Assembly: GCF_016734805.1 (NCBI RefSeq)
Contig: NZ_JAERQG010000001.1
Location: 1,178,001 to 1,242,000 of the forward strand
Reading direction: 5' to 3'
Origin: Marivirga atlantica
GTDB lineage: Bacteria; Bacteroidota; Bacteroidia; Cytophagales; Cyclobacteriaceae
Length of the DNA: 64,000 bases
Shown here: in pieces, positions 33,908 through 53,642 of the stretch
Position numbering within the stretch: the first letter of the stretch is position 1
Layout: each line of letters starts with the position of its first letter
Notes under the pieces: model-generated
What the model saw: the letters and a program-made list of their open reading frames with translations, nothing else
Told to the model about the DNA's origin: nothing
Databases searched by the model: none
Made by a program: the position numbers and the translations under genes

Positions 33908-33982
33908 GGGATTATAGCTCAGTTGGTTTAGAGCACCTGCCTTACAAGCAGGGGGTCGTAGGTTCGAATCCTACTAATCCCA
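33908..33982 (+). tRNA. trnV: tRNA-Val (anticodon TAC)
   Basis: A complete cloverleaf of 75 bases without encoded CCA. Acceptor stem GGGATTA pairs with TAATCCC (33975-33981), discriminator A at 33982. D arm is GCTC/GAGC. Anticodon stem CCTGC/GCAGG encloses the loop CTTACAA, with anticodon TAC at 33943-33945, so it reads GUA and wobble valine codons. T arm is GTAGG/CCTAC around TTCGAAT. The gene has its own promoter and a terminator hairpin starting 8 bases downstream. Confidence 0.97.
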
Positions 33983-33990
33983 CTAAAAGA

Positions 33991-34018
33991 AAAAGGTCAG
34001 AAGCAATTCTGACCTTTT
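33991..34018 (+). terminator. tRNA-Val terminator
   Basis: A 12-bp stem (AAAAGGTCAGAA and TTCTGACCTTTT) with a GCAA tetraloop, followed by further T residues. It starts 8 bases after the tRNA. The same 28 bases recur exactly at 34383-34410, after the broken tRNA copy. Confidence 0.9.
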
Positions 34019-34036
34019 TTTGTTTACTCAAATGTT

Positions 34037-34375
<339 letters not shown>

Positions 34376-50492: not shown

Positions 50493-51113
50493 ATGAAAAA
50501 TAAGAGGAAAATAAACGCACTGCATAATTCAGCGAGCTTCTCACTTTTTGTAACCTCTTATGCTCCATTATTCTTTTTAATAATTTTTAAGCAAGTTTAT
50601 GAAAATATACAATTTCTTAGTTGGGGTGGACTTAATTCAGCTTCAATCACAATTTTTATAGAAAGGTTTGGGTTGTCAACTATCCTTTTGATGATTGGAG
50701 TTGTTGGTATTTACGGAACATACAAAACTCTATCCAATATACATGAAAGAGCTAAAAACGGATTTCAGGTTGAAATAACTGACCTAAAGAATAGAAATAG
50801 CGAAGCTATTAATTACATCGCAACGTATATCATTCCATTTGCTTTTCAATCATTTGATAGTTGGCTAGACCTAATATCCATATTAACTATAATTTTTATC
50901 GTTTATCGCATATATATAAGCTCATCATTAATATTAGTAAATCCAATGTTAAGCTTTAAATATGGACTTTTTGAAATTGAATACGAGGAAAATGGAAAGA
51001 TCAGAAGTGCCTTTCTAATATCTAGGGATAAATATATTTCTGAAAATCAAAAAGTTTTGTTGTATGAAGTTGGACATAAGATGTATTATTCAATTAAACC
51101 AAAATCGAAGTGA
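50493..51113 (+). CDS. kwaA: KwaA-like membrane protein of a Kiwa antiphage system
   Basis: A 206-residue membrane protein with four hydrophobic segments (about 18-35, 60-80, 108-125, 130-150). The NYIATYIIPF segment (about 110-119) and a polar end with NPMLSFKYGLFEIEYEE fit KwaA, the membrane sensor of Kiwa, which detects phage at the envelope and partners with KwaB. The stop codon overlaps the start of the next gene as GTGA, and that gene is DUF4868, so the two-gene architecture matches Kiwa. On its own this protein would be hard to name; confidence comes from the pair. Confidence 0.78.
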   Translation: MKNKRKINALHNSASFSLFVTSYAPLFFLIIFKQVYENIQFLSWGGLNSASITIFIERFGLSTILLMIGVVGIYGTYKTLSNIHERAKNGFQVEITDLKNRNSEAINYIATYIIPFAFQSFDSWLDLISILTIIFIVYRIYISSSLILVNPMLSFKYGLFEIEYEENGKIRSAFLISRDKYISENQKVLLYEVGHKMYYSIKPKSK

Positions 51114-52129
51114 TAAAAGACTTACTAAGAAAAATAAAAGAAAGTGATTCAGATAATCTCAATTTATATTTTGTAACAAGAAAACTAAAGAAAGGGATAA
51201 AGGCTAGAGCCAAAGTATTGGAGAAGTACGAGTTTACTGTATACAGTGTTGATATTGATGATGAGATACGTGAACATTTATATGATTTGACAATTAAACA
51301 GTTCGACAACGTTGTAGAAAAAGAGCTTGAGACGACCCCCTTTGAAGTCATTTCTGATGATATTAAAAAGATTTTCACTTATGACATGACTAATAGAGCT
51401 ATGTCTTTTGCAGATGTAGTAAATAATCAATTAGCCAATAAATCTTTATTGAATAAAATTAATGATCTTTCTGATTTATTAAAGGAAGAGGAATTGTGGG
51501 CTTATTCTGTAGGCTTTTATGACGAATCTGATGATGACTGGTTTTATACTTTCCGTAAAATACTTCGTGGAAAAGTGGTTGTTGATGAAGAAAATAGAAA
51601 AAGTAAAAAGCAGAAAGTTAATTTTTTCAGAGCAAAATTTGATGTTGATAATAGTAAGCTAGAGATGCTTCATGGAGAAACAGTCAATTTAGATGAAAAA
51701 GTTGATTGCATATTTTATAATGAAGTCTTTTATATTCTTCAAAGAACGCAATTTGAACAGATTACTGGAATGGCGGAAGAATTTAAAGTGGAGGCGCAGA
51801 ATGTTGTTGAAGAACTGAAAAAGACTAATCTGTTTGAAGGACTTGAGCTATTAGAGCAACATGTAGAAGACAAACCACCTCTTCATAAAAAGTTGGTAAG
51901 ACTAAAAAAGGTTAATACCTATCAAAACCTTAAAATTAAAGATATCAATAGAATGCTTAAAATTGCTAAAAAATATGGAGGCATACTAAGAAAGGACAAG
52001 TCTGGTAAACTTTTAATAGAAAGTAAGGAAGATATTGATTTAACTATTAAGGTTCTGGTTGACTACTTTAAAAAAGGAGAATTTTCTGGTAATTCATATG
52101 GAACTTATAGTGGTAAGCAAATATCTTAA
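51110..52129 (+). CDS. kwaB: KwaB-like DUF4868 protein of a Kiwa antiphage system
   Basis: A 339-residue cytoplasmic protein that I assign to DUF4868, the KwaB family. Supporting blocks: LWAYSVGFYDES (about 126-137), FFRAKFDVDNSKLEML, DCIFYNEVFYIL, then QFEQITGMAEEF. KwaB binds DNA and suppresses late phage transcription or DNA replication; KwaA senses phage at the membrane. Start is a GTG overlapping the kwaA stop, so translation is coupled. It is followed after 27 bases by a DUF4442 gene that is probably unrelated. Family membership is from memory of its motifs and the paired layout. Confidence 0.8.
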   Translation: MIKDLLRKIKESDSDNLNLYFVTRKLKKGIKARAKVLEKYEFTVYSVDIDDEIREHLYDLTIKQFDNVVEKELETTPFEVISDDIKKIFTYDMTNRAMSFADVVNNQLANKSLLNKINDLSDLLKEEELWAYSVGFYDESDDDWFYTFRKILRGKVVVDEENRKSKKQKVNFFRAKFDVDNSKLEMLHGETVNLDEKVDCIFYNEVFYILQRTQFEQITGMAEEFKVEAQNVVEELKKTNLFEGLELLEQHVEDKPPLHKKLVRLKKVNTYQNLKIKDINRMLKIAKKYGGILRKDKSGKLLIESKEDIDLTIKVLVDYFKKGEFSGNSYGTYSGKQIS

Positions 52130-52156: not shown

Positions 52157-52681
52157 ATGTCCCTCTACCAAAAAATAGCTGCCATTGGCACCAAATACTT
52201 AGGTAAATCAAGAACCTTTAAATACGGTTTCAACTGGTCGCCTATGTACAGAAGAAGTACGGGGAGAATCATTTCTGTTTCTGATGATTTACTATATATA
52301 AAAATCAAGTTGCCCATCAACTATAAAAACCGGAATTATGTGAATTCCATATTTGGTGGCAGTATGTTTTCTGCTGTTGATCCCATCCCTATGGTACAAC
52401 TCATGAATTTGTTAGGTAACGATTATGTGGTGTGGGACAAGACTGCTGAAATTCGCTTTAAGCGCCCAGCCAGAGAAGACCTCTTCGCGGAGTTTATATA
52501 TTCAATATCTGAATTGAATGACATTAAAAGTAGGGTGGAGGCTCAGGATGAAATCGAAATTGTGAAAACTACTTTACTCACCAATAAAGCCGGAGACAAA
52601 ACCTTCTGCGAAGTACATAAAACCATTTATATCGCTGATAAGGAGTTCTTTAAGGAGAAGAAGCGGTCTAAAGAAAGCTAA
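52157..52681 (+). CDS. DUF4442 (hotdog thioesterase-like) protein
   Basis: A 174-residue protein of the DUF4442/PaaI-like hotdog group. It has IFGGSMFSAVDPIPMVQLMN (about 70-90), in which the FGG motif and following Asp suggest a thioesterase-like pocket, and an AEIRFKRPA strand. Its last residues KES and the TAA stop fall in the first 9 bases of a dispersed repeat (52673-52687), so the repeat inserted at, or created, the gene's end. The annotated C-terminus may be shorter or different from relatives'. Confidence 0.8.
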   Translation: MSLYQKIAAIGTKYLGKSRTFKYGFNWSPMYRRSTGRIISVSDDLLYIKIKLPINYKNRNYVNSIFGGSMFSAVDPIPMVQLMNLLGNDYVVWDKTAEIRFKRPAREDLFAEFIYSISELNDIKSRVEAQDEIEIVKTTLLTNKAGDKTFCEVHKTIYIADKEFFKEKKRSKES

Positions 52682-52804
52682 GCTTTCTAGTTAAAGATCC
52701 CTACCGATAGCTATCGGTAGGAATGACGTTCAACTAAAAAGTGCTAGAAAAAGCCGTCATTCCCTCGAAAGAGGGAATCCATTAATTCAACCATAGGTTG
52801 GATC
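52673..52804. repeat. Palindromic repeat unit 1 (132 bp)
   Basis: Order within the unit: GAAAGCTAAGCTTTC (52673-52687); GATCC, then a 22-bp perfect palindrome (52700-52721) ending AATGACG; a CTAGAA element; CGTC, then a hairpin (ATTCCCTC-GAAA-GAGGGAAT at 52759-52778); and a final TTCAACC-ATA-GGTTG hairpin. The two central hairpins face each other as inverted repeats (AATGACG against CGTCATT). It is one of four related units at 52673-53594. Confidence 0.82.
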
Positions 52805-52840
52805 TTGATGAATGTAGTAAAAAGGATACTTAAACTTATT

Positions 52841-52966
52841 GAAAGTCAAGCTTTCTAATACAAGATCCCCTTTTTCAAGGGGATGACGCTAGAATAATTA
52901 GGTGAGTTTCTATAAACCGTCATTCCCCTGAAAAGGTGAATCTGTTCTGTTCAGATAAAGTCTGAA
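52841..52966. repeat. Palindromic repeat unit 2 (126 bp)
   Basis: Same order as unit 1: GAAAGTCAAGCTTTC, then GATCCCCTTTTTCAAGGGGATGACG, CTAGAAT, CGTCATTCCCC-TGAA-AAGGTGAATC, then TTCAGA and TCTGAA arms. The hairpins differ in loop sequence while the stems are kept by compensating changes. The GIY-YIG gene starts 17 bases later. Confidence 0.82.
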
Positions 52967-52983
52967 AAATACTAAATTGAATT

Positions 52984-53286
52984 ATGCGCGCTAAAGGAGG
53001 ATATGTTTATATAGTCAGTAATGTTATAAGAAGTGTGCTTTACATTGGTGTAACCTCTAACTTATCTGCACGAAGTTCTGAGCATAAACATGGAGAAGGT
53101 TCTCAATTCACTAAAAAATATAAATGCACAGATTTAATTTATTATGAAGTTTTTGAATCAATAGAGGAGGCTATAGCAAGAGAAAAAGTTTTAAAGAAAT
53201 GGAATCGAAAATGGAAGTTGGAACTGATCCGTAAAATGAATCCTAATTTGAAGGACTTATACGATGAGGTAGAAGATTTTAAATAA
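52984..53286 (+). CDS. GIY-YIG nuclease family protein, embedded in palindromic repeats
   Basis: A 100-residue protein with a complete GIY-YIG domain: YVYIVSN (7-13), LYIGVTSN (18-25) with an Arg (residue 30) and EHKHGEGSQFTKKY, then the Glu of AIAREKVLKKW and a terminal NPNLKDLYDE motif. This subfamily is very common in bacterial genomes as isolated genes of unsettled role (repair, defence or mobile-element homing). The gene is exactly between repeat units 2 and 3 (17 bases from unit 2, 12 from unit 3), with no neighbour in its transcription unit. No transposase is present. Confidence 0.88.
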   Translation: MRAKGGYVYIVSNVIRSVLYIGVTSNLSARSSEHKHGEGSQFTKKYKCTDLIYYEVFESIEEAIAREKVLKKWNRKWKLELIRKMNPNLKDLYDEVEDFK

Positions 53287-53298
53287 TATTATTTTGTA

Positions 53299-53430
53299 GA
53301 AAGTCAACTTTCTAACACAAGATCCCTCCCGATAGCTATCGGGAGGAATGAGGCTAGAATAAGGATTTCCGCTTAATAAGATCGTCATTCCCTCGAAAGA
53401 GAGAATCTATTAATTCAACCATAGGTTGAA
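53299..53430. repeat. Palindromic repeat unit 3 (132 bp)
   Basis: GAAAGTCAACTTTC, then GATCC, then a 22-bp perfect palindrome at 53325-53346 (CCTCCCGATAGC and its complement), AATGAGG, CTAGAAT, a 28-base spacer, CGTCATTCCCTC-GAAA-GAGAGAATC, and TTCAACC-ATA-GGTTGAA. Homologous to unit 1 in order and size, with the same GATAGCTATC core. Confidence 0.82.
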
Positions 53431-53469
53431 TCTTTCTAAGAATAGGTGAATTTCAAGTATTAATTTATA

Positions 53470-53594
53470 GAAAGCTTAGCTTTCTAAGAACAGATTCCCG
53501 ATTGCTCGGGAATGACGCTAGAATTTTCTGATTAGCGTATGAAAACGTCATTCCCCTGAAAAGGGGAATCTGCTCTTTTCAACCGAAGGTTGAA
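53470..53594. repeat. Palindromic repeat unit 4 (125 bp)
   Basis: GAAAGCTTAGCTTTC (53470-53484), then GATTCCC-GATTGCTC-GGGAATGACG, CTAGAAT, spacer, CGTCATTCCCC-TGAA-AAGGGGAATC, then TTCAACC-GAA-GGTTGAA. The last 40 bases before the clpB terminator are unremarkable. Confidence 0.82.
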
Positions 53595-53642
53595 AATGCT
53601 TTTTGTTAACTTCTAAGATTTTAAGGGATGACGATTTGAAAC

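Follow-up and report, generated by a model that had tools for sequence, protein, structure and literature searches.

We propose that the GIY-YIG nuclease encoded within a repeat array of Marivirga atlantica is the missing dedicated enzyme of the CGTC REPs, and that the REP-bounded cassettes of this array are minimal mobile elements. The array spans approximately positions 52673-53597 of the window, by which we mean the whole 64-kb stretch of DNA analyzed. What was observed comprises the association of enzyme and repeats, its specificity for one GIY-YIG subfamily, the geometry of the cassettes, the co-variation of protein and repeat, presence or absence at related sites, and gene-less relatives having the same ends. 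This suggests that the enzyme and the repeats form one small mobile unit.

Sequence inspection and repeat searches delineate eight hairpins with an unpaired tag, arranged in four head-to-head pairs with 27-30 bp between the paired hairpins. The tag reads CGTC in seven hairpins and CCTC in one (53353), and all eight stems start with AT. Six stems are 8 bp long with a 4-nt loop (two of these with one mismatch), and the remaining two have 12 bp, one mismatch and a loop of 4. The tail is CCA in one REP and CTT, CTG or CTA elsewhere. The first pair is composed of REP 1- (52694-52728, minus strand, head at 52728, 12-bp stem) and REP 1+ (52755-52779, plus strand, 8-bp stem, 4-nt loop), the second of REP 2- (52864-52888, minus strand, a GTCATCCCC variant) and REP 2+ (52918-52942, plus strand), the third of the CGTC-type REP 3- (53319-53353, minus strand, head CCTC, 12-bp stem) and REP 3+ (53383-53407, plus strand), and the fourth of REP 4- (53493-53517, minus strand) and REP 4+ (53546-53570, plus strand). 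The same eight hairpins can be grouped differently, into three cassettes with inverted ends and outward heads, which leaves half a cassette over at either end. Indeed, the array is best read as three such inverted-end cassettes. Gene-less cassette A (52755-52888, 134 bp head to head) is bounded by REPs 1+ and 2-, the gene-bearing cassette (52918-53353, plus strand, 436 bp head to head) by REPs 2+ and 3-, and gene-less cassette B (53383-53517, 135 bp head to head) by REPs 3+ and 4-. Two subterminal hairpins are located further inside, the left one being TTCAACC/GGTTGAA and the right one GAAAG/CTTTC. The left one is seen, as TTCAACC/GGTTGGA, at 52786-52802, with more copies at 53414-53430 and 53578-53594, and the right one at 52841-52855, with more copies at 52673-52687 (overlapping the end of the preceding gene at 52681), 53299-53312 and 53470-53484. 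The gene-bearing cassette thus runs from the plus-strand REP through a hairpin, the GIY-YIG gene and a second hairpin to the minus-strand REP; its left inner hairpin differs, being TTCAGA/TCTGAA.

The first-pass annotation, made from the letters alone, had placed four repeat units around the GIY-YIG gene, and units 1 and 2 do precede, and units 3 and 4 follow, the gene at 52984-53286. The compensating stem changes that it described are also there (ACCGATAG/CTATCGGT vs. CCCGATAG/CTATCGGG, and CCCTC/GAGGG vs. CCCGA/TCGGG). Its picture of the unit as a single ordered set of hairpins needs modification, in that every unit consists of two CGTC-tagged hairpins placed head to head. Likewise, TTCAACC/GGTTGAA was said to occur in every unit, which is true of all but unit 2 with its TTCAGA/TCTGAA, and every CCC/GGG hairpin was said to end in AATGACG, to which the CCTC head at 53353 is the exception. 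CTAGAA is present in all units (52744, 52889, 53354, and 53518) and directly follows the left head in units 2-4, but not in unit 1. Allowing at most one mismatch, CGTCATTCCC has nine matches in the window, seven of them inside the array, as compared to a mean of 1.18 and a maximum of 4 in shuffled sequences. A strict hairpin detector found 10 hairpins in the window, eight of which lie inside the array, and 0-3 in each of ten first-order random sequences of equal length. Folded as single-stranded DNA, units 1-4 have z values of -4.7, -3.9, -3.1, and -7.6, and 0, 1, 0, and 0 of 200 shuffles, respectively, folded as well.

Judged by their sequences, the array repeats fit the CGTC REP superfamily, most of the marks of which they display (Di Nocera et al., 2013; PMC3733652). 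In this superfamily the tag may also read TGTC or CCTC, stems have 8-9 bp with loops of 4-5, and a short tail fits CCA, the sequence seen in one of the eight array REPs. The likeness extends to the unpaired CGTC tag, the AT start of the stem, the paired copies, the intergenic location and the mostly 8-bp stem with a 4-nt loop; repetition through the genome is also found, at a low copy number (19 places). The first-pass annotation knew of no described system of this form, which is not supported as regards the repeats, since they fit a published superfamily. CGTC REPs are listed for Bacteroidetes among other phyla, and for Neisseria as dRS3, and were reported without association with transposase genes; they "apparently lack a dedicated transposase" (Di Nocera et al., 2013; PMC3733652). 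The difference here is that a GIY-YIG subfamily is tied to the REPs.

The nuclease gene (52984-53286, plus strand) encodes 100 amino acids and was recognized from its open reading frame, a 63.9-bit match to PF01541, alignments and an AlphaFold model. PF01541 (GIY-YIG) is the sole Pfam family found in the protein, with no match to an HUH transposase, and searches of the gene against NCBIfam and PADLOC models were negative. The analogy to RAYT transposases drawn in the first-pass annotation therefore concerns the layout and not the enzyme. In alignments Y9, Y20, R30, H34, and N86 are invariant, and E67 is invariant or nearly so; the roles of Tyr9, Tyr20, Arg30, His34, Glu67, and Asn86 are assigned after GIY-YIG enzymes in general. 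In the AlphaFold model (pLDDT 92.9) a helix comprising residues 60-72 and carrying Glu67 is followed by a turn (73-74) and the next helix (75-85), and residues 71-78 read KKWNRKWK. Among solved structures, those of UPF0213 proteins are the closest by sequence (PDB 1zg2, 1ywl), and 1zg2 was first in a fold search (E 1.4e-3), followed by a weaker match to Slx1. We know of no repeat partnership for either UPF0213 proteins or Slx1.

Upstream of the array, KwaA and KwaB of the Kiwa anti-phage system are located at 50493-52129 of the window (PADLOC 233.6 and 343.6 bits, below the NCBIfam cut-offs), with only a DUF4442 gene between them and the array.

The association with REPs is general for this GIY-YIG subfamily. 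It was assessed with a generic detector (GTCAT plus three bases, then their complement plus ATC within 110 nt), which replaced a strict hairpin regular expression that overlooked bulged stems such as ATTGCGAGG. In the window the generic detector catches four of the eight array REPs and seven other, mostly long-loop, chance matches, and it overlooks GTCAC and CTCAT heads (loci L202, L203, and L205). Three sets of loci were analyzed. A search of 194 genomes of the order gave 84 places, and the regions of the 40 best places, taken in list order with one skipped, contained 43 genes by tblastn (set 1). A REP lies within 300 bp of 32 of these 43 genes, as opposed to 32 of 323 control ORFs. The number of REPs per kb falls with distance from the gene, from 5.09 (<150 bp) through 3.38, 1.50, 0.56, 0.36, and 0.33 to 0.087 (4-10 kb), and intergenic DNA adjoining the gene has 5.0 REPs per kb vs. 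0.57 in other intergenic DNA of the same regions, which yielded 266 detector matches as they stand and 32 when reversed. The second set consists of the best 80 of 574 confirmed loci from a protein-alignment scan of genome contigs; judged by record titles, these 80 belong to Bacteroidota, several classes of Pseudomonadota, Campylobacterota, Patescibacteria, and others. REPs were found within 300 bp of 69 of these best 80 (control ORFs, 35/266), and 148 were counted within 150 bp vs. one in reversed sequences. In the third set, 90 further Bacteroidota loci with 95 genes or fragments (five of them at least 90% identical to earlier ones), 80 of the 95 genes have a REP within 300 bp. In a sister GIY-YIG subfamily (query L003) only one gene of 14 has a REP, a long-loop match. 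The resemblance of the repeats to REPs that was noted in the first-pass annotation is supported, and their specific tie to this subfamily is borne out by the control ORFs of sets 1 and 2 and by the control subfamily. It had also been reasoned there that copies spread evenly through genomes would speak against a link with the gene; given the enrichment beside GIY-YIG genes in all three sets and the control comparisons, that objection does not apply.

At the level of whole genomes, the GTCATTGCGAGG repeat type occurs in 21 of the 194 genomes of the order, and a GIY-YIG gene of the family (E 1e-15) was found in 15 of these 21 vs. 34 of the 173 others (Fisher 2.9e-6). The six GTCATTGCGAGG genomes without such a gene at this threshold include one with 68 copies. 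Among the more distant loci, a relative in Neisseria gonorrhoeae is 45% identical to the window protein, has the segment KKWNR, and is surrounded by 15 detected REPs within 750 bp. These CGTCATTCCCGCG REPs around the gonococcal GIY-YIG gene are presumably dRS3. Two chromosome-sized N. gonorrhoeae records are filed as plasmids in PLSDB (L200), and the GIY-YIG gene is absent from their gene table.

The neighborhood of other GIY-YIG genes is different. The gene used as query for the sister subfamily (L003), the distant L004 and L005, and loci L309-L321 adjoin tRNA genes instead of REPs. A tRNA gene of one of many isotypes is present at 14 of 16 such loci, in 13 cases no more than 90 bp from the GIY-YIG match and in one case approximately 280 bp away, and at none of 29 loci of the REP-linked family. 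In the window this arrangement is represented at 33908-34365, where tRNA-Val (33908-33983) is followed by a GIY-YIG frame of this kind that contains one stop (34046-34282) and, from 34286, by a degenerate tRNA-like copy. These genes look like a tRNA-targeting counterpart. No hairpin of the generic detector was found within 300 bp of L003-L005, all three in the M. atlantica genome; a looser detector gave three overlapping weak matches beside L004.

Copies of the first REP pattern with at most one mismatch were found at 19 places in the 4.19-Mb M. atlantica genome, five of which are inside the array; three array copies, two with 12-bp stems and one with two mismatches, do not enter this count. 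Most matches with three mismatches are likely due to chance, because a control pattern also yields 23 within that limit. Gene-less cassettes are present at three other places of the genome (L165, L167, and L169) and align with the array cassettes through both inner hairpins, the left one being imperfect in L165. In addition, there is another GIY-YIG gene in the genome (46% identical) and, likewise, another REP family, CGTCATTTCGTAGCGCAGCGAAGAAATC, found at seven places (at most three mismatches), five of them within 0.82 kb of this second gene. The two enzyme and REP pairs of the genome combine KKWNRKWK with ATTCCC, and KDWNRKKK with ATTTCG. Further CGTC-type clusters (ATTGCGAGG and short ATTCCGTAGGAAT forms) are located at L173 and L174 on contig C8, on which no GIY-YIG place was found.

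The geometry of the cassettes was followed in 218 genes over the three sets, a few of them occurring twice. REPs lie within 200 bp on both sides of 121 genes; both heads point outward in 67 of these, where 25% would be expected, and inward in 25, and the two tandem orders account for 12 and 17. Consequently, 54 of the 121 genes are without the heads-outward layout. The heads-outward unit has a median length of 395 bp. The spacing of neighboring tail-to-tail REPs is bimodal (60-140 and 340-440 bp), which is what gene-less and gene-bearing cassettes would give. At L046 two gene copies, whose products share 59 and 57% identity with the window protein, lie 2 kb apart, and their common DNA runs from the GTCAT of the left REP to the ATGACA of the right REP and stops there, while in the G117 copies the similarity extends a few bases past the heads. 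At L302 (992-2117) three GIY-YIG cassettes are arranged in tandem with a period of approximately 419 bp and joined by head-to-head REP pairs. Over 78 more distant gene pairs, flank identity drops only weakly, from 0.48/0.44 in the linkers to 0.38/0.43 outside the heads (baseline 0.32).

Related sites differ in the presence of the unit. On Sphingobium plasmids, the stretch from fnrL to a response-regulator gene was compared in 11 records with matches to both of its flanks. It contains the REP-gene-REP unit in seven of them and lacks it in four; a single double-headed REP palindrome occupies the same stretch in TYG64 and TYG74, and TYG72 and TYG65 have neither. The flanks of occupied and unoccupied fnrL sites are otherwise changed as well. 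MM7A and MM15 contain a gene-less cassette that TYG46 lacks, and here too the flanks are changed; a Sinorhizobium site resembles the Sphingobium pattern. Neither a clean target-site duplication nor a near-identical empty site was seen in the L046, Sphingobium, or Sinorhizobium comparisons. The first-pass annotation had suggested looking for target-site duplications and empty sites; the Sphingobium plasmids provide a polymorphic site, with no clean duplication or perfect empty site. For the window array itself, the neighboring DUF4442 gene was matched (E 1e-20) in only three of 29 genomes, one being the window genome itself, and in none of nine other genomes of the genus, so that no empty site could be aligned. 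DNA similarity between Fulvivirga sediminis (L080, 80% identical protein) and the last 24 kb of the window is confined to the gene.

Recognition of the REP by the nuclease is supported, at the level of sequence, by the co-variation of the two. At 108 REP-bearing loci, of which 86 remained once thinned at 75% identity, the four strongest ties of a protein column to a REP stem position link residue 73 to stem base 4, residue 72 to base 6, and residue 74 to bases 6 and 5. After thinning, K at residue 72 goes with C6 in 20/24 loci, N with G6 in 14/15, and A with A6 in 7/9; at residue 73, W goes with C4 in 58/67 and G with G4 in 15/15, and at residue 74, H with T5 in 6/6. A relative having the segment KGGSRxKK, for example, has the REP ATTGCGAG. 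A table of one residue to one base, learned from these loci, was then applied to 75 new loci with REPs, where it gave all three bases correctly in 25, as compared to a mean of 12.6 and a maximum of 23 in 5000 shuffles and to 26 when CTG was always guessed. Residue 74 alone was right in 57/75 (majority guess 45, shuffle maximum 53), residue 73 in 57/75 (majority guess 56), and residue 72 in 43/75, below the majority guess of 61. A simple residue-to-base code is accordingly no better than guessing the commonest triplet. Since the table held only partly on the new loci, the claim was reduced to one that the segment carries the specificity.

In a nearest-neighbor test on 183 loci, the REP of a locus was predicted by that of its closest match among the others. 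When only donors below 60% overall identity were admitted, residues 71-78 gave stem bases 4-6 fully right in 0.56 of cases, whereas the median of other 8-column windows was 0.15, with 0.48 for the overlapping window from residue 69; the other 88 columns reached 0.11, a handicapped figure, because the limit on donor identity caps it. With all donors allowed, the segment (0.65) and the other 88 columns (0.60) are almost equal. Co-variation is also seen within genomes. In 17 genomes with at least two genes having different REPs (55 loci), the own REP fits better than a swapped one in 93 of 128 ordered pairs, worse in 28, and equally in seven, and the sum of matches is 192.9, as opposed to a mean of 161.7 and a highest value of 183.7 in 2000 within-genome shuffles.

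In our opinion the locus is probably an array of minimal mobile CGTC-REP cassettes, in which the nuclease recognizes its own REP through residues 71-78 and cutting promotes copying. Each cassette would be bounded by two inverted REPs with their CGTC heads outward, one cassette carrying the gene of the single-domain GIY-YIG nuclease and the two others being gene-less and MITE-like. The nuclease would be specific for REPs of its own class, reading them from the GTCAT head as far as the first bases of the stem, by way of the segment around the turn that follows the helix with the presumed catalytic Glu67. The REP would most likely be cut while single-stranded or extruded as a hairpin, and the cut would prompt host repair or recombination to copy the cassette; in this way both gene-bearing and gene-less cassettes could spread and accumulate as arrays. 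Cleavage, its strand specificity, the movement of the cassettes and the repair route are the parts of this scheme that we infer. To our knowledge, no strand-transfer activity is known for a GIY-YIG nuclease alone.

Other explanations of the same locus have to be weighed. That REPs are merely common in the intergenic DNA where small genes lie, so that the two meet by chance or composition, agrees with the mostly intergenic position of REPs, but the 5.0 vs. 0.57 REPs per kb within intergenic DNA and the within-genome co-variation contradict it, and its probability is close to negligible. The repeats could also act as RNA hairpins only, as terminators or autoregulatory targets in the nuclease mRNA, and strong stems do flank the gene on both sides. 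We consider this very improbable, as REPs occur in both orientations and also far from the GIY-YIG places found, the unpaired tag and the class are kept, and other ORFs and the other GIY-YIG subfamily are mostly without REPs.

A free-standing homing endonuclease is a more serious, though still unlikely, candidate. Similarly to the window gene, free-standing GIY-YIG homing endonucleases are generally known as lone nuclease genes at a presumed target, and REPs would then be independent repeats that serve as the landing and cutting site; the gene would move by inserting between them, whereas the REPs would not depend on the gene. REPs do occur without the gene, the protein has the active-site residues and no domain besides GIY-YIG, in Azospirillum the gene lies with its REPs around it between sufB and sufC, and the co-variation of protein and repeat would hold equally. 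What differs is that the targeted repeats here supply the unit with its ends as well: the heads-outward layout, the 395-bp unit and the gene-less cassettes with the same inner hairpins argue for REPs as unit ends, and the second REP family clusters near its own gene. It is likewise improbable, in our estimate, that the system serves the host in the manner reported for Ssn, the nuclease cutting incoming single-stranded DNA at the repeats and thereby tuning uptake or recombination, with the repeats beside the gene being only a dense part of a genome-wide target set. The gonococcal relative among its 15 detected REPs speaks for such a role, but REPs of the patterns searched are few in the window genome (19, of which five in the array, and seven of the second family, of which five near the gene), and a selfish array fits better.

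The mobile-cassette reading can be placed beside known systems. RAYT/REP systems (REPtrons, REPINs) are alike in that a small enzyme gene has REPs of its own class on either side and gene-less copies are dispersed, and they differ in combining a GTAG tag with an HUH tyrosine transposase, where the array combines a CGTC tag with a GIY-YIG hydrolase. A study in Nature Communications from 2025 reportedly found that a GIY-YIG family, Ssn, cuts single-stranded DNA at Neisseria repeats, the target sequence being present in hundreds of Neisseria copies and the homologs each having their own sequence. We take the window enzyme to be a member of this family. Ssn is similarly described as a single GIY-YIG domain with the active-site residues, whose own repeated sequence occurs both beside the gene and at other places; the cassette ends, the gene-less cassettes, the spread over phyla and the specificity segment come from the present analysis. 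Given that Ssn is said to act at Neisseria repeats, the pairing of enzyme and repeat is probably partly known already, and the cassette anatomy, the specificity segment and the CGTC-REP identity may be new. No literature linking GIY-YIG nucleases to REP elements, REPINs, or dRS3 was found, as judged by titles. Because the repeats carry most of the marks of CGTC REPs, and the enzyme is no RAYT but presumably an Ssn, the locus is described here as a REP system run by a GIY-YIG nuclease.

More tentatively, and with rather less confidence than even, GIY-YIG/CGTC-REP cassettes might constitute a separate and very widespread class of minimal mobile elements, of approximately 400 bp with one 100-aa hydrolase and no strand transferase, which would be the missing source of CGTC REPs and have its targets set by a swappable segment of approximately eight residues reading the first REP stem bases. 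CGTC REPs of several phyla have been published without an enzyme, and a specific partner would explain their origin. A GIY-YIG partner would give a second, chemically different solution to the spread of REPs in addition to that of the HUH transposases. The short segment that co-varies with the repeat would offer a direct handle on how small nucleases choose their sequences.
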